Below are positions 6,842 through 45,373 of a stretch of DNA of 64,000 nucleotides, in pieces. Under the pieces are notes generated by a model. The model saw only the letters and a list, made by a program, of their open reading frames with translations, ran no database searches and was not told where the DNA came from. Source of the stretch: Epilithonimonas caeni DSM 17710 (lineage in GTDB: Bacteria > Bacteroidota > Bacteroidia > Flavobacteriales > Weeksellaceae); the NCBI RefSeq assembly GCF_000426465.1, contig NZ_KE384527.1, forward strand, positions 272,543 through 336,542, written 5' to 3'. How positions within the stretch are numbered: the stretch's first letter is position 1; every line of letters begins with the position of its first letter. Made by a program: the position numbers and the translations under genes.

Positions 6842-7190
6842 AATCATCACCAAATTCAAATTTAAAATCCTGAAAATAAAACCATTACATACCTGTCGTA
6901 GATATGTTGTAGATGATTTTTTGCATGATATTATGTTAAAATGCAATCTTTGCCATGAACAAAAGGAAGGTTCATAGAAAAGAAAAAAAATTTATTGTCC
7001 CATCATTTTCGTAAACACAAGGATTCTAAAAGCACAAAAAGTCGAATAAGGTCTGTAACTGTTCAATTTCCAGATTATTATTATCAGTTGTTTCTTACTG
7101 TTTTAATTTTTCATATCAAATCGCTGGTAAAAAGTAACGACATTATGCTCTGGAAATTTCTAGAGCTTTTTTTATGTCATAGACTGATAC
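6842..7190. other. Gene-free stretch with possible small transcript
   Basis: 349 bp without a credible protein gene. A promoter-like pair, TTG at 6921-6923 and AATCTTTG at 6945-6952 (one mismatch to TAnnTTTG, spacer 21), lies about 200 bp upstream of a good terminator at 7147-7173. A 19-codon basic reading frame (6955-7014) starts at the predicted transcript end. Whether this is a small RNA, a peptide or decay is not decided by the sequence. Confidence 0.35.
7147..7173 (+). terminator. Intrinsic terminator
   Basis: A stem of eight or nine pairs (GCTCTGGAA with AATTTCTAGAGC side, one G-T pair), 7147-7166, followed by seven T. It faces the plus strand and is 306 bp past the nearest upstream stop codon. 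Confidence 0.7.
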
Positions 7191-7649
7191 TTATCTATGC
7201 TGATCTACCAAAATTTTATTTCCATCAGGATCAGTAAATTCTATATAAGCAGGACCTTTTGATTTTTCATCTGCTTCTGTATTGAATTGTATTTGGTCGT
7301 TTTTAAGTTTTTTCTGAATGTCACGAACATCTGTGAATGGATCGACCTCTTTTGCATTCTCATCCCAACCTGGATTGAACGTAAGAATATTCCCCTCAAA
7401 CATTCCTTCAAAAAGACCGATAAGAGCCGTTCCATTTTTCATAATGACATAACGATGTTTAATATCGCCTCCCATCTGGGAAAATCCGAGTTTCTCATAG
7501 AACTCTTTTGACTTAGCAAGATTTTTGACATTAAGACTCACAGAAAATGCACCAAGTGGTAATTTGTCTTTATTAGGATCTTTCGAATTAGACTCTTGAG
7601 AAAATAACACGGTCGGCAAAAAAACCATTAAGGTAAAGAATGTTTTCAT
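7191..7649 (-). CDS. Exported VOC-family (glyoxalase-like) protein
   Basis: 152 residues. A signal peptide (MKTFFTLMVFLPTVLFSQ) precedes a single vicinal-oxygen-chelate module with the phrases SVSLNVKNLAKSKEFYEKLG and YIEFTDPDGNKILVD. One module of about 120 residues would dimerise to form a metal site. Most VOC proteins of this size are cytoplasmic, so the signal peptide is unusual. Substrate unknown. It lies 30 bp downstream of the small membrane protein gene and may share its transcript. Confidence 0.85.
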   Translation of the reverse strand: MKTFFTLMVFLPTVLFSQESNSKDPNKDKLPLGAFSVSLNVKNLAKSKEFYEKLGFSQMGGDIKHRYVIMKNGTALIGLFEGMFEGNILTFNPGWDENAKEVDPFTDVRDIQKKLKNDQIQFNTEADEKSKGPAYIEFTDPDGNKILVDQHR

Positions 7650-7679
7650 TTCTATTTTTTTGAACTTTTATCAACGTAC

Positions 7680-8048
7680 TTACTTCATATAATTCCACCT
7701 GGGAATAATTGCTAGCAATCCGAGTCCCACATAGAGGAAAAGAACTGTAATGTCTGAATAAAGATAAGTACTTAGAAAATAGTTATGCAGTCCAAAATGA
7801 ACCATCACGAAAACAGGAAACAGCACAACACCTAATTTCCTGTAAAAAAGGATCAATATCCAGCTCATGACCACAAGGATATCTACTCCTAGAGTATAAT
7901 AGAAAAATCCGGAAGGTATATTGATAACCCTATGCTGTGAAAGTTCCGCAAGGTCTGTATTGATACTCAGTAAATAAACCAAAATAATAAGTCCGAAAAT
8001 GATGTAGTGGTCTTTATTATTATTAAAACTTTTGTCTGCAGCTTTCAT
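7680..8048 (-). CDS. Small four-helix membrane protein, function unknown
   Basis: 122 residues from the ATG at 8048 (MKAADKSFNN). An upstream in-frame TTG at 8063 lies inside the lrp terminator and is rejected. Four hydrophobic stretches are visible: near residues 17-34, 49-70, 74-91 and 97-114. The tail ends IIPRWNYMK. No family was recognised. It is followed by the VOC gene. Confidence 0.65.
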   Translation of the reverse strand: MKAADKSFNNNKDHYIIFGLIILVYLLSINTDLAELSQHRVINIPSGFFYYTLGVDILVVMSWILILFYRKLGVVLFPVFVMVHFGLHNYFLSTYLYSDITVLFLYVGLGLLAIIPRWNYMK

Positions 8049-31455: not shown

Positions 31456-31477
31456 TAACCTTTAAAAATTTAATATG

Positions 31478-31795
31478 ATGAACTTACCAAATGTAATTCA
31501 GGAATTAGTAAAAGCAAAAAACAGTTTTGATAGTGCTGCCTTTGCAGAATGTTTTGCAGAGAAAGCCGTAGTTTTTGACGAAGGCAAGACACATACTGGC
31601 AGAAAAGAAATCGAGCAATGGATCGATAGATCCAACAAACAACATCAAGATACGCTGGAACCCGTTGATTACGATGAAAAAGAAGATATATTGTCGGCAA
31701 AAGTTACTGGGTCATTTCCGGGCAGTCCTCTTGTTTTGAAATTTCATTTGAAGATTGTCGATGGAAAAATTCAGAATCTAAAAGTAACCGAGTAA
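31478..31795 (+). CDS. SnoaL-like (NTF2 fold) protein, copy 1
   Basis: 105 residues from the second of two ATGs (31478); the paralogue begins at the equivalent MNLP. The opening (LVKAKNSFDSAAFAECFAE) and the conserved THTGRKEIEQWIDRSN block mark a small NTF2-like protein. These fold as cone-shaped dimers and bind or turn over small molecules. It lies 22 bp after the SDR stop, so it is in the same operon. Confidence 0.8.
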   Translation: MNLPNVIQELVKAKNSFDSAAFAECFAEKAVVFDEGKTHTGRKEIEQWIDRSNKQHQDTLEPVDYDEKEDILSAKVTGSFPGSPLVLKFHLKIVDGKIQNLKVTE

Positions 31796-31812
31796 AACAT
31801 CTGTCTAAAAAA

Positions 31813-31876
31813 AACAATGTTTGATGGCGATACAGTGCCCACCTATTTTATGATCTTTAAAAATAAAAAATTATGA
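31813..31876 (+). pseudogene. Remnant of the SDR 3-prime end in front of the second SnoaL gene
   Basis: The in-frame phrase F-DGDTVPT matches the SDR tail IDGGTVPTI and is followed by the same CTTTAAAAAT spacer that lies between the SDR and SnoaL copy 1. This marks the left edge of the duplicated segment. Confidence 0.6.
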
Positions 31877-32187
31877 ACTTACCAAAAGTAGTCGAAGAAC
31901 TAATAAAAACACAAAACGATTTTGACAGCGCAGCCTATGCCCAATGTTTTACGGAAACAGCAATAGTCTATGACGAGGGCAAAACGCATACAGGCAGAAA
32001 AGAAATTGAACAATGGATAGACAAAGCCAATCAGGATTACCGCGCCACAATGAAACCCTTGGAATATTCGGAAACAGAACAGACGCTAAAAACTGAAGTT
32101 TCGGGGAATTTCCCGGGAAGCCCGATCACAATGACTTATCATTATGAATTCGAGGACGGATTGATTCAATCGCTAGAAATTGTTTAG
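31873..32187 (+). CDS. SnoaL-like (NTF2 fold) protein, copy 2
   Basis: 104 residues, about half identical to copy 1, with THTGRKEIEQWIDKAN unchanged at the core and divergence in the C-terminal third. It is the product of a tandem duplication that also carried part of the SDR tail. Same strand and probably the same transcript. The retained frame of both copies suggests both are functional. Confidence 0.8.
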   Translation: MNLPKVVEELIKTQNDFDSAAYAQCFTETAIVYDEGKTHTGRKEIEQWIDKANQDYRATMKPLEYSETEQTLKTEVSGNFPGSPITMTYHYEFEDGLIQSLEIV

Positions 32188-38347: not shown

Positions 38348-40906
38348 ATGGAGATATTCTTACTATTGCTCATTTTGGTTTTTGTGATCATCATTCACAA
38401 CAAATCGACTGCAAATCATCAGGCGACTCAAAATTCAATTGATCAGCTTCAGGAAAAATTGAATGCCCTGAAAACAGAAATCAATACGAGACCTGTCAGC
38501 AAAACCGAGCCTGAAATCCCAATTATAAAAGAAGAAATAAAACAGGAAGATAAAATATCTTTTAGAGAAACTCCAGAAATCATCGAAGAAGGAAAGATTC
38601 CGGAAGAAGAAATTCAGCCAGAAATCATTGAAAATATTCCACCAATTGTGGAAGAACTTGAGCAACCTGAAAAAAAGGTCGCTTTCTTGGCAGAACACAG
38701 AGTAAAGGAAATTCTGCCACCTAAAAAATCGTGGCTGGAAAGCTTCAAGGAAAATAATCCTGACATCGAGAAATTCATCGGAGAAAACCTCATCAATAAA
38801 ATCGGAATTCTGATTCTGGTTCTCGGAATCAGTTTCTTCGTAAAATATGCGATCGACAAAGATTGGATCAATGAACCTGCGCGTGTCGGAATCGGTATTT
38901 TGGCTGGCGCTTTGGTAATGGGCATTGCGCATCGATTGAGGAAAAATTATGCAGCTTTCAGTTCGGTTTTTGTGGCTGGGGCGATCAGCATTTTTTATCT
39001 TACGATTGGGATTGCATTCCACGATTATCACCTGTTCAGTCAGACTGTGGCGTTCATTATTATGGTGGTGATCACCATTTTCAGTGTGTTTGTCTCCGTT
39101 TCTTATGACCGGAAAGAATTGGCGGTTTTAGCATTGATTGGTGGTTTTGCCGTTCCTTTTATGGTGAGTACAGGCGAAGGAAATTACAAAGTTTTGTTCA
39201 CTTACATTGCGGTTCTCAATATTGGAATGTTGATGATTGCTTACTTCAAAAAATGGAATCTCGTTACTTTACTGGCTTTCATTTTCAGTTGCCTGCTTTA
39301 TTCGGCTTGGTTTGGAAAAGGGTTTTACGACGACCAATTACCTTGTCGGGGTGCATTATTCTTTGCGACAATATTTTATATTATTTTCAGTGTTGCTACA
39401 GTTATCAATAACCTGAGGAATAAAGGTACTTTTACGAAGCTGGAGTATTTCATAATGGTCGCTAACACGTTCTTCTATTTCGGAATGGGAATCAGCATTA
39501 TCGAAAATTGGAAACCAGAATTGAAAGGTTTGTTTACCATTGCATTGGCTTTTTACAATTTGGTCTACGCGATATTTTTATATAGAAAATTCGGGTTGGA
39601 CAAAAATGCGATCTATCTTTTGTTAGGACTGACTTTAACCTTTGTTACATTGGCAATTCCAATTCAGTTTAGCGGCAATTACATTACATTATTCTGGGCT
39701 GGAGAAGCCGTTTTATTGTTCTGGCTTTCTCAAAAATCGAAAATTGCAACCTTCAAATTGGGTGCAATAATTGTTCAAATTTTGATGTTGGGAAGTCTGA
39801 TCATGGATTGGGAAAAATATTATTCCGGCAATGTGATGGAACTAAAACCTTTCCTCAACCGAATGTTCATCACAGGAATCGTTTCCCTGGCCTCATTGAT
39901 TTTTACTTATATTTTATTAAAAAAAGAGAAAGAAATTACCAATATTTTCAGTTTCGAATTCCATCCTTCTTATTACAGAAATATTATTTTAGGAGTTGGT
40001 ATTTTGGTCGGATATTTCACCGGAATGCTGGAAATCAGTTATCAAGCTAACGATCATATGAGCAATTACTATTCAGCATTATCGTATTCGGTTCTGTATC
40101 ATTTTTTGTTCAGCGTTGGTATCATTTATTTCGTTTTAAAACTGAAGGATCAATTTTGGAACAGTTTTACAATTCTTTTGTCTTCTGTTAACATCCTTTT
40201 ATATATCGCAATTTTCTACAAATTGACTTACAACGAGATGACGGAAAATTTCGTGATTAATCTGTCTTCCAGATCAGCTTATTTTATTCATTACATTTTA
40301 CTGATTTGTCTGGCTTATTTTGGATATGTTTTGATTAAATTCAGAAATGAAAGCCATTTTTCAACATATCTGAATCACAAATTGGCGCTGTGGGTTTTCG
40401 CATTTTGCATCGTTTACGTTTTGAGCAATGAAGTAATGATGCACGGATTGATGTTCAATAATGGCATTATTTCATCAGCCGAATTAGCAAAATACCCATT
40501 GAATAAAACGGGTCACAGCTATGAAAAAGAGATTTTCATCGATGAGAAATTCGAAGCTATAAAACTTCAAATCATCAAAATTGGCTATCCGATTCTTTGG
40601 GGCGTTTTATCCTTTGTTTTCCTGATTATTGGTATCAAAAAACAAAATCAACCGCTAAGGATTATCGCTTTGGCTTTGCTCGGCATTACGATTATCAAAT
40701 TATTTGTTTACGACATCCAAAACGTTTCGGAAACAGGGAAAATCATTGCTTTCATCTTATTAGGTGTGTTGATTTTGATTATTTCGTTCGTTTATCAAAA
40801 GATTAAAAGACTGGTCGTAGATGAAACAAAAATCTCTTCGGATAAAATTGTAAATCCTGAAGACCCAACAGAAACTAAAAACCCAAACGATGAAGAAATC
40901 AATTAG
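38348..40906 (+). CDS. DUF2339 multi-pass membrane protein
   Basis: 852 residues from ATG 38348 (an upstream TTG at 38327 lies inside the promoter box). One N-terminal membrane helix (1-18), an amphipathic linker, a glutamate/proline-rich segment (about 55-125), the DUF2339 block NKIGILILVLGISFFVKYAI (about 150-170), and then about 20 further membrane helices to the end. It overlaps the DUF3999 gene by 17 bp, the standard partner arrangement for this family. Function unknown; an envelope role is likely. Confidence 0.87.
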   Translation: MEIFLLLLILVFVIIIHNKSTANHQATQNSIDQLQEKLNALKTEINTRPVSKTEPEIPIIKEEIKQEDKISFRETPEIIEEGKIPEEEIQPEIIENIPPIVEELEQPEKKVAFLAEHRVKEILPPKKSWLESFKENNPDIEKFIGENLINKIGILILVLGISFFVKYAIDKDWINEPARVGIGILAGALVMGIAHRLRKNYAAFSSVFVAGAISIFYLTIGIAFHDYHLFSQTVAFIIMVVITIFSVFVSVSYDRKELAVLALIGGFAVPFMVSTGEGNYKVLFTYIAVLNIGMLMIAYFKKWNLVTLLAFIFSCLLYSAWFGKGFYDDQLPCRGALFFATIFYIIFSVATVINNLRNKGTFTKLEYFIMVANTFFYFGMGISIIENWKPELKGLFTIALAFYNLVYAIFLYRKFGLDKNAIYLLLGLTLTFVTLAIPIQFSGNYITLFWAGEAVLLFWLSQKSKIATFKLGAIIVQILMLGSLIMDWEKYYSGNVMELKPFLNRMFITGIVSLASLIFTYILLKKEKEITNIFSFEFHPSYYRNIILGVGILVGYFTGMLEISYQANDHMSNYYSALSYSVLYHFLFSVGIIYFVLKLKDQFWNSFTILLSSVNILLYIAIFYKLTYNEMTENFVINLSSRSAYFIHYILLICLAYFGYVLIKFRNESHFSTYLNHKLALWVFAFCIVYVLSNEVMMHGLMFNNGIISSAELAKYPLNKTGHSYEKEIFIDEKFEAIKLQIIKIGYPILWGVLSFVFLIIGIKKQNQPLRIIALALLGITIIKLFVYDIQNVSETGKIIAFILLGVLILIISFVYQKIKRLVVDETKISSDKIVNPEDPTETKNPNDEEIN

Positions 40907-42110
40907 TCTCATATTTTTATTAACAATCTGTTTTTCCTTCGCTCAAAATTATCGGGGAAAAATCAATAAAGTCCCGGAAAGCGGATTGCATCAGATCTTG
41001 CTAACTCCAGAAGTTCGGTCTGCGTCACAGAATAATATCGATTTTTTAAGGATTTTCGATTCTAAAAACAACGAAGTTCCTTATGTGGTCTATGAAGGAA
41101 AATACAGTAATTCCAGTTCAAATAATTTTACAATAATTTCAAAAACTGCCGTTCCGAATGTCGCTACTTCCATCATTATCTCCAATGAAAACGCATTGAA
41201 CATTGACCATCTGACGCTGAAAATCGCCAATACGGATGTCGAAAAAAAGTACAATATCAGCGGAAGCAACGACCAGAAAGAATGGTTTGGTTTGGTCGGT
41301 AACCAGAAAGTAATCGGGCTGAATGATGCCGGTGAAAACTTTGTGGAACGTGATTTTGCTTTTCCTTTGAACAATTACAAGTTCCTGAGATTTGATTTCA
41401 TCGATAAAAACTCGTTGCCTATTAATATTCTTGGAGCCAGTTTAGAAGAAAATCATTCAGTCAATCAATCGAAGACTGAATTGCAAAACTTCACTCAAAA
41501 AATTGAGACAGATAAAAAATTAAAACAAACCAAAATCACGATTACTTTTCATGCTCCACAAGTGATTGACGGAATTGGTTTCGAAATTTCTGCGCCGAGT
41601 TATTATCTGCGTGATGCAAGAATTCTGATTAATAAAACCAGAGTTTATAAAAAATCGAATGAGAATTATGTTGAGAATATTTCTGCTTTTCAACTCAATT
41701 CAAAAAGTAAAAACAGATTTGATGTCCAAAGTTTTTTTGTCAAAGAATTCATAATCGAAATTGATAATCAAGATAATCCGGCTCTAGAAATTAAAAAAAT
41801 CAATCTTTTCCAATCGCCAATCAGTATTTTAACCGATTTGAAGGCAAATGAAAATTATACTTTAAAAATTGATTCCACCTGGTCTGCACCACAATATGAT
41901 TTAGTCAACTCTGGAATCGATTTTAATCAGAATTATCCTACTGCAACTATTTCAAACTTAGAAAAAATTGAACAATCAAAATCCAAGGAAAATGCGAAAA
42001 CCTTTTGGCAAACACCTTTCTTTATGTGGATTTGTATTGTTTTAGCTGTAGCGATTATTGGTTATTTTGCGGTTGGGTTGATTAAGGATATGAATAGGGA
42101 GAATCAGTAA
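40890..42110 (+). CDS. DUF3999 family protein
   Basis: 406 residues, starting inside the end of the DUF2339 gene. Signal peptide (1-18, MKKSISLIFLLTICFSFA), a long beta-rich extracytoplasmic part (about 20-370) and one C-terminal membrane helix (about 375-398). The DUF2339-DUF3999 pair recurs in many bacteria. The overlap implies translational coupling and a physical complex. No enzymatic motif. Confidence 0.82.
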   Translation: MKKSISLIFLLTICFSFAQNYRGKINKVPESGLHQILLTPEVRSASQNNIDFLRIFDSKNNEVPYVVYEGKYSNSSSNNFTIISKTAVPNVATSIIISNENALNIDHLTLKIANTDVEKKYNISGSNDQKEWFGLVGNQKVIGLNDAGENFVERDFAFPLNNYKFLRFDFIDKNSLPINILGASLEENHSVNQSKTELQNFTQKIETDKKLKQTKITITFHAPQVIDGIGFEISAPSYYLRDARILINKTRVYKKSNENYVENISAFQLNSKSKNRFDVQSFFVKEFIIEIDNQDNPALEIKKINLFQSPISILTDLKANENYTLKIDSTWSAPQYDLVNSGIDFNQNYPTATISNLEKIEQSKSKENAKTFWQTPFFMWICIVLAVAIIGYFAVGLIKDMNRENQ

Positions 42111-42178: not shown

Positions 42179-43081
42179 ATGAGCGATAACAAAATAAATA
42201 TTACTTCAAGTTTATTAGAGAAAGGAGTTGACATTGCTAAAGATTTTGTTGATAAACTAATTATTCCTTCCGTTGAAGAAACAGGACTTTTATTGAAAGA
42301 CCAAATCTCACTTTGGAGATTTAAAAATCAAATAAAAACTTTGGTTAAAGCAAAAGAAATATGTGCCAAAAACAATATTTCCCCCAAACAAATATCACTA
42401 AAATTACTTTGTCCAATATTAGAGTATTCTAGTCTTGAAGAAGACGATTTCTTAACAGATAAATGGGCAATACTTCTCTCAAATCTTGTTGATTCAGAAC
42501 AGAATATTCAAAACCACGTTTTCCCATATATTTTAAGTCAAATTTCAACAAAAGAGTTTCAAATATTAGAAAATGTTTTTGACGAAAAAGATAATAGATT
42601 ATCAAAAATAAGAGAAGATTTAAATCACTATTATCAAAATCGAGAAAAAATCGAGCAAGAAATTAAAAAAGAATTAAAAGATATTGATAGAAAAATTATT
42701 TTTTTTGATGAAACTGATGGTTACATAGATTATGAATTAACTAAGCTATATCGGGAAAAATCTGCAATTAATAGTAAACTTAATACATACAAGCAAAAAG
42801 AGGTAATTTTAAAATATTCATTAGATAAATTAGAAACGATTCCAACAGGAAGTGTTGAAAAATTTGAGTTATCAAATTTATTAAGATTAGGTTTAATTAA
42901 AGAGGAAAAAGAGTTTTATGCTAACCCTCAACCATTAAAAATCCCAAATGAAAGGGATGATTATGAAACTCATACTACTGTTGACTTAGAAATAGATGTT
43001 CATTCTGACATTGATTATTATTTAACTGAATTTGGAGAATTGTTCATAAAATTATGCAAAGAGAAACTGCAGGTAACATAA
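42179..43081 (+). CDS. Abi-alpha (DUF4393)-like protein, candidate phage-defence gene
   Basis: 300 residues, markedly more A/T-rich than the genes on each side, with many TTA and ATA codons. The opening has an amphipathic region (LLEKGVDIAKDFVDKLIIPSVEETG) followed by SPKQISLKLLCPILEYSSLEEDDFLTDKWAILLSNLVD in the manner of Abi-alpha/DUF4393 proteins, which cause abortive infection in some phages. A central coiled coil (about 145-190) and an acidic C terminus follow. No signal peptide. The match is by eye to the conserved N-terminal pattern; sequence search would settle it. Likely acquired by transfer. Confidence 0.55.
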   Translation: MSDNKINITSSLLEKGVDIAKDFVDKLIIPSVEETGLLLKDQISLWRFKNQIKTLVKAKEICAKNNISPKQISLKLLCPILEYSSLEEDDFLTDKWAILLSNLVDSEQNIQNHVFPYILSQISTKEFQILENVFDEKDNRLSKIREDLNHYYQNREKIEQEIKKELKDIDRKIIFFDETDGYIDYELTKLYREKSAINSKLNTYKQKEVILKYSLDKLETIPTGSVEKFELSNLLRLGLIKEEKEFYANPQPLKIPNERDDYETHTTVDLEIDVHSDIDYYLTEFGELFIKLCKEKLQVT

Positions 43082-43115
43082 TATTAGCAAAATGTGGTCG
43101 AAAATAATCCACCAA

Positions 43116-43187
43116 AAAAAACCTTTCCAAAATCGGAAAGGTTTTCTTTATCTAATACTGAAACTTCCTGAAAGCTTCCAGCGTTTT
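43116..43187. repeat. Left copy of the hemL 3-prime end and terminator
   Basis: About 70 bp matching 44058-44127 with a few differences. On the minus strand it still encodes [11 protein letters not shown] plus a stop (43152-43184). It bounds the GLPGLI gene on its left. Confidence 0.8.
43118..43145. terminator. Terminator belonging to the duplicated hemL tail
   Basis: 11-bp perfect stem AAAACCTTTCC / GGAAAGGTTTT with loop AAAATC, with eight T following on the minus strand and T on the plus strand. It ends the Abi-like gene, but its minus-strand form is the hemL terminator without a hemL gene. Confidence 0.7.
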
Positions 43188-43269
43188 TGTTTTACTTTTA
43201 AAAAATATAAATATTAGAACTTCGTTTATCCTTGTATTAGAAGGAAGTTTAAACAAACACTCGTCACAA

Positions 43270-44058
43270 ATGAAATTAATTATATTTTTTCTTGGAATTT
43301 CTACCTTTTGCTCCTCACAAAAAATTAGTTTCATTTACGAAACAAAATACAAACTGAATTCAGAAAATCCGGATGATGTCAATTCCGAGAGAATGATTTT
43401 GGATTTAAAAGATAATATTTCAATTTTTAGAGATTCAGTAGAAAAAGAAGCAGATTCACTAAAGCTGAATAATGGAAAGGAAATATTTAAAATGGGCGTT
43501 GAAAACCAATTCTATGTCAAAAAGAATCTTGCTCAAAAAAGAATTGAAAAAGTAATAACTTATTTGGGAAAAGATTATCTTCTTCCAATTGAGGAAATAT
43601 TAAATTGGAAAATATCTTCCGAACAAAAAATGATTGGAAAATACAAATCTCAAAAAGCAGAAACTACGTATGGAGGAAGAAACTGGATTGCTTGGTTTAC
43701 AACAGAATTACCTTTTGGAGATGGTCCATATATTTTCAATGGTTTACCCGGATTGATTGTTTCTATTCATGATTCAAACAATGATTATTCATTTAATTTG
43801 ATAGAAGTCAAAAAAGGCGGGAATCTATTTGACGCACGCACAAAAACAATAAAAATTGATTGGAAAAAATATGAAGCACTTGCAAAATCATATTTTAATG
43901 ACCCATTTAATATAAATTCAAGAGGGTGGAAAACAGCTACATTTACCGACCCAAATGGTACAACAGTAGATATTTCTGTAAAAAATAGAGAAATACAAAA
44001 TAATCTTCTACAAGAAAATAATCCAATCGAATTAAATCATAAAATAATTTATAAATAA
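43270..44058 (+). CDS. GLPGLI family exported protein
   Basis: 262 residues. A signal peptide (about 1-16) and the family motif FNGLPGLIVSI (near residues 154-164) that names this Bacteroidota family. The family is otherwise of unknown function, though commonly exported. A/T-rich like the preceding gene. It occupies the 941-bp unit between the two hemL-tail copies. Confidence 0.85.
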   Translation: MKLIIFFLGISTFCSSQKISFIYETKYKLNSENPDDVNSERMILDLKDNISIFRDSVEKEADSLKLNNGKEIFKMGVENQFYVKKNLAQKRIEKVITYLGKDYLLPIEEILNWKISSEQKMIGKYKSQKAETTYGGRNWIAWFTTELPFGDGPYIFNGLPGLIVSIHDSNNDYSFNLIEVKKGGNLFDARTKTIKIDWKKYEALAKSYFNDPFNINSRGWKTATFTDPNGTTVDISVKNREIQNNLLQENNPIELNHKIIYK

Positions 44059-44127
44059 AAAACCTCTCCAAAATCGGAAGGTTTTTCTTTAACTAATACT
44101 GAAACTTCCTAAAAGCTTCCAGCGTTT
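44058..44127. repeat. Right copy of the hemL 3-prime end and terminator (native)
   Basis: Overlaps the true hemL C terminus (minus strand, stop at 44093-44095) and an A/T stem with one bulged base (44057-44085) acting on both strands. Partner of 43116-43187. Confidence 0.8.
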
Positions 44128-45373
44128 TGTCAATCTCTGTATCGCCAATCGCAGATGAGATAAACCAGGTCTCATAGCCACTTGGCGGAAGATAAATCCC
44201 TTGTTCCAAAACCTGATGAAACAGATTGTTGAACAAACCAATATTGGAATTATTCACTTCATTAAAATTACTTGCAGAAGTCACATCAAAGAAAATAGAC
44301 ATCATACTTCCTTTTCGGTTGATTCTGTGTCGGATTCCTTTTTCATTCAAAATTTTTCCAATTTCAAAATCTAAAGTTTCGGTTGTTTTATCAAGCTTTT
44401 TATAAAAATCAGCATCCTGCTTTATCAATTGCAACGTTTTAAGTCCGGCTCTCATTGCCAAAGGATTGCCGCTCAACGTTCCGGCTTGATAAACGCGTCC
44501 TCTTGGCGAAAGCCAGTTCATGATTTCGTTTCTTCCGGCAAATGCACCAACCGGCAAACCGCCACCAATGACTTTTCCATAAGTTACCAGGTCTGCCTTT
44601 ACGCCCAGAGCTTCCTGCGCTCCACCAAAAGCTAAACGGAAGCCTGTCATTACCTCGTCAAAAATCAATAATGCACCGTTCTCATCACACAATTTTCTAA
44701 GGTTTTGAAGGAAGTGATTTTCCGGCAGAATACAACCCATATTTCCGGCAATCGGTTCTACGATAATTGCCGCGATCTGCCCAGGATTATTTTTGAAAAG
44801 TTCTTCAACCTGTTCGATATTATTGTATTCGGCTAATAAAGTATCTTTTGCCGTTCCTTGGGTAACACCCGGAGAATTGGGACTTCCGAATGTCGCCATT
44901 CCACTTCCCGCCTGAATCAGAAACGAATCCGAATGGCCATGATAACAGCCTTCGAACTTGATGATTTTTTCTCTTTCCGTATAACCTCTCGCCAAACGGA
45001 TCGCGCTCATACAAGCTTCGGTACCCGAAGAGACCATTCTGATCTGGTCAACATTAGGAACGTTTTCTACAATGAATTTGGCGATTTCGGTTTCCAATTC
45101 TGTCGGTGCACCGAAAGAAAATCCTTTCTCAGCCTGCAGTTTCAGAGCTTCCAAAACTTCGGGATGTGTGTGGCCGAGAATCGCTGGTCCCCACGAATTG
45201 ATATAATCGATGTAGGTTCTGTCATCCTCATCTGTAAGGTAAGCCCCTTTTGCAGATTTCATAAAAACCGGAACCCCGCCTACAGATTTGAAGGCACGAA
45301 CCGGAGAATTCACACCGCCCGGAATATATTTGTACGCTTCCTCAAAAAGCGCTGAACTTCTTTGGTATAACAT
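44093..45373 (-). CDS. hemL: Glutamate-1-semialdehyde 2,1-aminomutase
   Basis: 426 residues. PLP enzyme making 5-aminolevulinate for heme. The Schiff-base lysine is K267 in [10 protein letters not shown], with [10 protein letters not shown] (D-E-V) upstream and [16 protein letters not shown] at 115-130. Full length. The last ten residues, LEAFRKFQY and preceding, are duplicated 941 bp away. hemJ is in the same window but not adjacent. Confidence 0.97.

Follow-up and report, generated by a model that had tools for sequence, protein, structure and literature searches.

A 941-bp unit at the 3' end of hemL in Epilithonimonas caeni DSM 17710 is probably the scar of a homology-anchored insertion. 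It is found in the analyzed window, a 64,000-nucleotide stretch of contig NZ_KE384527.1 (positions 272,543 to 336,542). The observations behind this reading are an empty site in a relative, differing cargo genes, copied gene tails at two housekeeping genes (hemL and groL), scattered junctions at groL, an order of divergence along the groL arrays and recombinant-looking hemL ends.

A repeat search of the window revealed two copies of a 72-nt tail (43116-43187 and 44057-44128; 93% identity, ungapped, same orientation) at a spacing of 941 bp, in agreement with the sequence-only reading, which had described a repeated hemL end with stop codon and terminator. The anchor gene hemL (glutamate-1-semialdehyde aminotransferase, 44093..45373, minus strand, ORF of 426 aa) has a single match in each of the 23 genus genomes. 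Based on the repeat and on folding, the proximal tail (44057..44128) contains the last 36 nt of hemL, the stop codon and a terminator hairpin, and also follows the stop codon of the boxed GLPGLI gene. The distal tail (43116..43187), with counterparts in G001, G006 and G021, represents an old hemL 3' end and terminator with no hemL attached. Its hairpin is stable on both strands (-14.1 kcal/mol on plus and -18.9 kcal/mol on minus; z -5.7 and -5.3), as had been proposed for a terminator with no hemL in front, and could also serve as the terminator of the plus-strand Abi_alpha gene. The corresponding values for the right tail are -10.3 and -12.1 kcal/mol (z -3.8 and -3.2). Searching the 23 hemL loci with a profile of 12 hemL ends recovered the left copy at E = 4.4e-20, and the coding part alone did so at 1.9e-7; the similarity of the left copy to the hemL end is far beyond chance. 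Near-full-length tail matches in the 23 genomes are found at the hemL locus only, the remainder being 28-43-nt pieces that mostly represent the hairpin, including one 35-37-nt piece elsewhere in each of G003, G007, G013, G015 and G020 (query 26-62, 84-86% identity). The idea of a generic dispersed terminator, for which no integration event would be needed, was rejected because matches covering most of the tail are confined to the hemL locus in these 23 genomes.

According to the ORF list, the only gene between the two tails is an exported-looking GLPGLI gene (Porph_ging, PF09697; 43270..44058, plus strand, 262 aa) with relatives in family genomes; the unit thus holds a single exported GLPGLI gene and no integrase, just as originally described. 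Directly upstream, the 5' end of the cargo (43217..43269, plus) appears, by eye and by leader matching, to consist of the decayed right arm of an attC-like site followed by a cassette leader. Left of the distal tail lie, in order, an Abi_alpha gene (PF14337; 42179..43081, plus, 300 aa), a DUF3999 gene (40890..42110, plus; assigned by Pfam and locus comparison) and a large membrane-like frame. Abi_alpha is considered the next cargo gene and its end carries a putative remnant, the left half of an attC-like site (43067..43097, plus), recognized by eye against sites at other loci. In the comparison of 23 hemL loci, G001 alone showed a relative of this gene, likewise located behind the distal tail. 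PADLOC returned nothing for the two cargo genes of the window.

The hemL locus of the window was compared with those of 22 other genus genomes, with about 9 kb of sequence per genome and 2.4 kb in the case of G012. Just 5 of the 23 genomes have a second tail, namely the window's own genome (G000), G001, G006, G021 and, in decayed form, G022, which contradicts the possibility that relatives show the same layout everywhere. The box contains a GLPGLI gene in four of these (G000, G001, G006 and G021) and an unrelated 191-aa frame instead in G022, located before the decayed tail; in G009, a GLPGLI gene adjoins hemL and the second tail is absent. The five hemL-side GLPGLI proteins are 84-94% identical. 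G015 has a single tail, the DUF3999 region, with its frame open, begins about 50 bp past the hemL stop, and the outer tail of G022 aligns with this sole tail at the DUF3999 boundary. G015 thus represents the empty site and G022 an occupied one, and the locus comparison gives good support to the window unit being an insertion at the hemL end. Both checks suggested by the sequence-only reading therefore gave positive results: G015 joins hemL directly to the sequence beyond the inserts, and other cargo between hemL-tail copies is found in G022, with boxed genes also present at groL in another genus. The content beyond the tails differs between genomes as well, including Abi_alpha, DUF4435/AAA, RelA/SpoT-like and GmrSD-like genes. 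The boxes of G001, G006 and G021 have one common junction, G000 resembles that junction with a deletion, and the hemL record would in effect amount to a single clear event and, in G022, a decayed copy. A tree of hemL 3' ends was too short to resolve. rpoB, analyzed in 21 of the 23 genomes, pairs G000 with G006, G001 with G009 and G021 with G022, and on these pairings descent with losses would be indistinguishable from exchange as the origin of the box distribution.

A number of further tail candidates were rejected. A third hemL tail suspected beside DUF3999 in G021, G006 and G004 was absent on alignment, a candidate in G008 (at 2898) was at noise level (E = 0.62), and tail-like matches in L033 and L037 were ascribed to paralogues on the match table alone. 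Those in L061, from a Ferruginibacter bin, correspond to a short repeat that overlaps the hemL end and carries no cargo; three further copies of this short tandem repeat are located at 7300-7700 of the same locus. Two other features were observed during the locus comparison. In G003, an rpoB-start-like fragment (C39:12450-12671; model positions 4-77, one stop) precedes the complete rpoB gene by about 8 kb. The hemL locus of G019 (L135) contains downstream frames that, by eye and by their motifs, resemble a transposase of the IS91 type and a DNA methyltransferase.

The 3' end of hemL itself points to recombination. In the last sixth of the gene, the excess of fourfold-site identity is 0.193 in the 10 pairs of GLPGLI carriers versus 0.06 in the 56 other pairs of a 12-genome set chosen by the analyst, and upon label permutation a value this high occurs in 5 of 792 sets, counting the actual labelling. 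The hemL genes of G001 and G022 are 90-94% alike elsewhere and 87% in the last sixth. These data suggest that GLPGLI carriers have a common recombinant hemL 3' end. As a caveat, it should be noted that G004 has no GLPGLI gene at hemL and equally shares this end (1.0 with G006), so that the cargo alone does not account for the shared end.

More extensive arrays are found at groL. Flank comparison revealed groL ends repeated around a GLPGLI gene in L162 and L167 (larger loci L213 and L214). When the last 65 aa of GroEL were used as query, 311 of 316 family genomes had at least one match, and more than one match was found in 74 of 169 genomes of a single genus, g6, versus 0 of 147 other family genomes. 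Including the full gene, 43 g6 genomes have two matches, 17 three, 6 four, 4 five, 2 six and 2 seven. As a control, the last 51 aa of HemL, a query that misses stumps of about 12 residues, yielded exactly one match in 307 of 316 genomes and multiple matches in none. For further analysis, 22 groL loci were used (L213, L214 and 20 g6 loci), picked for their extra matches. Downstream of groL, each of the 22 loci has tail copies (1-10 per locus; 80 in total after merging), of which 59 start inside the gene and 21 at or beyond the stop codon. The junctions between cargo and tail comprise 61 types, 46 of them with a coding start between -247 and -5, and a uniform spread of these 46 is not rejected (KS p = 0.50), with positions taken from alignment ends and thus possibly in error by some bases. 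An initial comparison, in which tails were matched to the groL of the same genome, had given 70 pieces, 42 junction types and p = 0.11. Given this scatter over the last 250 nt, no fixed att site is visible at groL. Assembly error is unlikely, since five loci (G045, G049, G110, G150 and G182) are from assemblies that consist of one contig. In G065, one groL-end match (C4:74751-74945) is located about 50 kb from groL on the same contig.

Identity of the tails to their own groL decreases with array rank (rho -0.42, p = 0.002; 51 pieces of at least 100 nt), and the first tail is closer to its own groL than the last in 13 of 16 arrays, a pattern that would equally arise if the nearest copy underwent gene conversion. 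The fourfold-site identity shows no general rise at the groL end across 20 loci (0.734 in the last eighth, 0.655-0.741 in the others). Cargo of the groL arrays comprises 116 frames, with 12 families occurring in at least two arrays and 73 groups in single arrays, and one cargo family is joined to the groL tail at differing points. Half an attC-like motif precedes 6 of 70 groL junctions compared with 17 of 2000 random places (p = 3e-5, treating junctions as independent); breakage at attC-like hairpins may be a source of ends for the groL joins.

The GLPGLI gene shows cassette-like features at other loci. Relatives (E up to 1e-60) were identified in 57 of 320 family genomes, a phage search yielded none and all plasmid matches are below 60% identity. 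The last 33 leader bases of the window are matched at 25 or more positions in 21 of 29 other GLPGLI loci (31 in L167), a typical leader at these loci being GTTAGCAGAAATTTTAAAC. Seventeen candidate attC-like hairpins were picked by eye at 10 GLPGLI loci, and complete attC-like sites were recognized, again by eye, at 10 loci other than that of the window. In an eight-site structure, 76.8% of cells are paired versus 64.1% after shuffling, and 20 cells are changed on both sides versus 9.1, indicative of covariation. Model R1, based on 8 attC-like sites at 7 loci, detected sites, often arranged in arrays, in all but one of the 23 genus genomes; one training site (L163) is from G020, whose match is thus by construction. 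No full-length R1 match was found in the window, L121, L125, L128, L136 or L137. A search for exact core motifs was dropped, as it gave 14 matches versus 7.2 in shuffled sequence and 1 versus 1-3 in the window. Behind the GLPGLI gene at hemL, a complete attC-like site is absent, and half a site was recognized by eye in G006 and G021. The gene probably originates from a cassette pool, and since only remnants of attC-like sites are present at hemL, this copy was apparently not placed there by whole-cassette attC recombination.

A potential source of such cassettes is encoded in the window's own genome. Locus L215 (C1:655000-673000) contains, near glgB, a divergent tyrosine recombinase of 279 aa (6933-7772, minus) that adjoins an array of R1 sites (9257, 10612, 11273 and 11901, plus) with single genes between them, an integron-like layout. 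The recombinase passes the XerA-type model NF040815 of NCBIfam (225.9 bits, cut-off 220) and fails the integron-integrase model TIGR02249 (208 bits, cut-off 265), its match to the latter being split into stretches 4-180 and 238-314. No canonical IntI with the extra segment was detected, with 0 of 59 relatives above the TIGR02249 cut-off. Related recombinases are located in arrays beside glgB (L215, L216, L218 and L219) or groL (L217 from G013 and L242 from G102), or adjoin neither gene (L221 and L225, both with an array); the array of L220 lacks a recombinase match. Bacteroidota are listed among the integron-bearing phyla in a review (PMC8618304).

We hypothesize that DNA of a relative, containing its hemL end, the terminator and an adjoining accessory gene, would enter the cell via DNA uptake, whereupon RecA-type pairing within hemL would anchor one side and illegitimate joining within the hemL tail of the recipient would connect the non-homologous far end. 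The outcome would be one complete hemL with terminator and a new gene adjoining it, the recipient's own tail being displaced outward, where it would decay. Serial events would yield rows of boxes with the newest nearest the anchor gene, as at groL in g6. Cargo would be drawn partly from attC-bearing cassettes in integron-like arrays, and the tails themselves would not act as recombinase sites. Consistent with a homologous anchor, hemL and groL are complete on the anchor side and, with the caveat of G004, GLPGLI carriers share a hemL end. A variable non-homologous junction is found at groL with its many coding-start types, the hemL events being too few. No donor-recipient pair for such an insertion was caught.

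Three other explanations need to be weighed against homology-anchored insertion. The boxes could be ready-made units of gene and tail, freed as circles by homologous recombination between tails and reinserted at the same gene end by a single crossover. We regard this as unlikely, as we do the associated notion that tails serve as a RecA-driven cassette site. Several of the 12 recurring cargo families do occur at differing ranks, identical gene-tail junctions recur in L226/L245, L237/L238/L240 and L228/L244, and L227 has one junction twice. However, shared junctions are also expected from inheritance of whole arrays, such units would be unable to create the first box, and 61 junction types in 80 copies demand many illegitimate joins. 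In addition to homology-anchored insertion, boxes may well be swapped between tails. Integrative elements at gene 3' ends restore the end of their target and leave the old copy to mark the far side, and the hemL layout resembles theirs in both respects. Unlike them, the hemL unit encodes no integrase, and the units described here mostly comprise one or a few genes. A tyrosine recombinase acting in trans on the tail as att site, for which XerA-type recombinases and attC-like sites are present elsewhere in the genome and beside groL in G013 and G102, is nevertheless very improbable. The groL junctions are spread across about 250 nt with no fixed att point, L125 and L136 have no R1 match, and whole-cassette recombination would not leave half a site as in G006 and G021. 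Of the integration with restoration of the gene end originally proposed, the insertion that leaves hemL whole is thus supported by the empty site of G015, but its site-specific mode is disfavored by the groL junction scatter and by the merely partial presence at hemL of the attC-like site that belongs to GLPGLI elsewhere. The alternative proposed at the time, local tandem duplication of tail and neighbor followed by drift and gene loss, does occur in the window (31475-32187) but has hardly any likelihood for the hemL box: the genes boxed at hemL and groL are unrelated, an empty site exists, and only 12 of the 51 longer groL tails find their best match among the 22 groL genes in their own groL.

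The arrays resemble integron cassettes in that they consist of single genes with the newest nearest a fixed end, and GLPGLI genes do carry attC-like sites at other loci; unlike in integrons, the repeat at hemL and groL is the host gene end rather than attC, and the attC-like site at hemL is incomplete. The closest precedent, by analogy, is the model of homology-facilitated illegitimate recombination outlined for T6SS immunity-gene arrays of Vibrio cholerae (Kirchberger et al. 2017, PMC5361080). As outlined there, these arrays likewise have a conserved anchor, serial adjacent insertion that pushes older genes outward, 3'-end remnants and no specific integration site. In Vibrio, the effector gene is displaced and immunity genes are kept as cargo, whereas here the anchors hemL and groL are intact housekeeping genes, copying of the tail includes the terminator and the cargo is mixed (compared with the outline in PMC5361080). 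Homology at one end and an illegitimate join at the other also characterize the process summarized in PMC3240628, which is known from experiments; the events described here are deduced from genomes, are serial and leave a copy of the anchor end behind.

It is conceivable, and we propose this tentatively, that housekeeping 3' ends of the Chryseobacterium group act as integrase-free cassette platforms fed by a little-described XerA-type integron-like system. If so, every insertion would duplicate the gene end together with its terminator, and accessory and defence-like genes could be stacked harmlessly beside an essential gene and later swapped via the tails. The titles and abstract openings surveyed in the literature contained no account of tail arrays at hemL or groL or of the integron-like arrays of this group. 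Homology-anchored insertion would provide a recombinase-free route to cassette-like arrays, in which new DNA docks at the end of a well-kept gene that has a good terminator, and the sequence of arrivals can be read from the copied tails. It would also separate two processes that look alike in a single genome, namely site-specific 3'-end integration and homology-anchored insertion. Because such tails can be found by simple searches, it becomes possible to measure what fraction of accessory and defence-like genes was acquired by this route.

A scan for copied gene ends covered 1275 ORF ends in 135 sequences. At 31475-32187 of the window, an SDR-like gene is followed by a pair of small paralogues (106 and 104 aa), and a copy of the 3' end of the SDR-like gene precedes the second paralogue. 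This locus is a true tandem duplication, in contrast to the hemL box.
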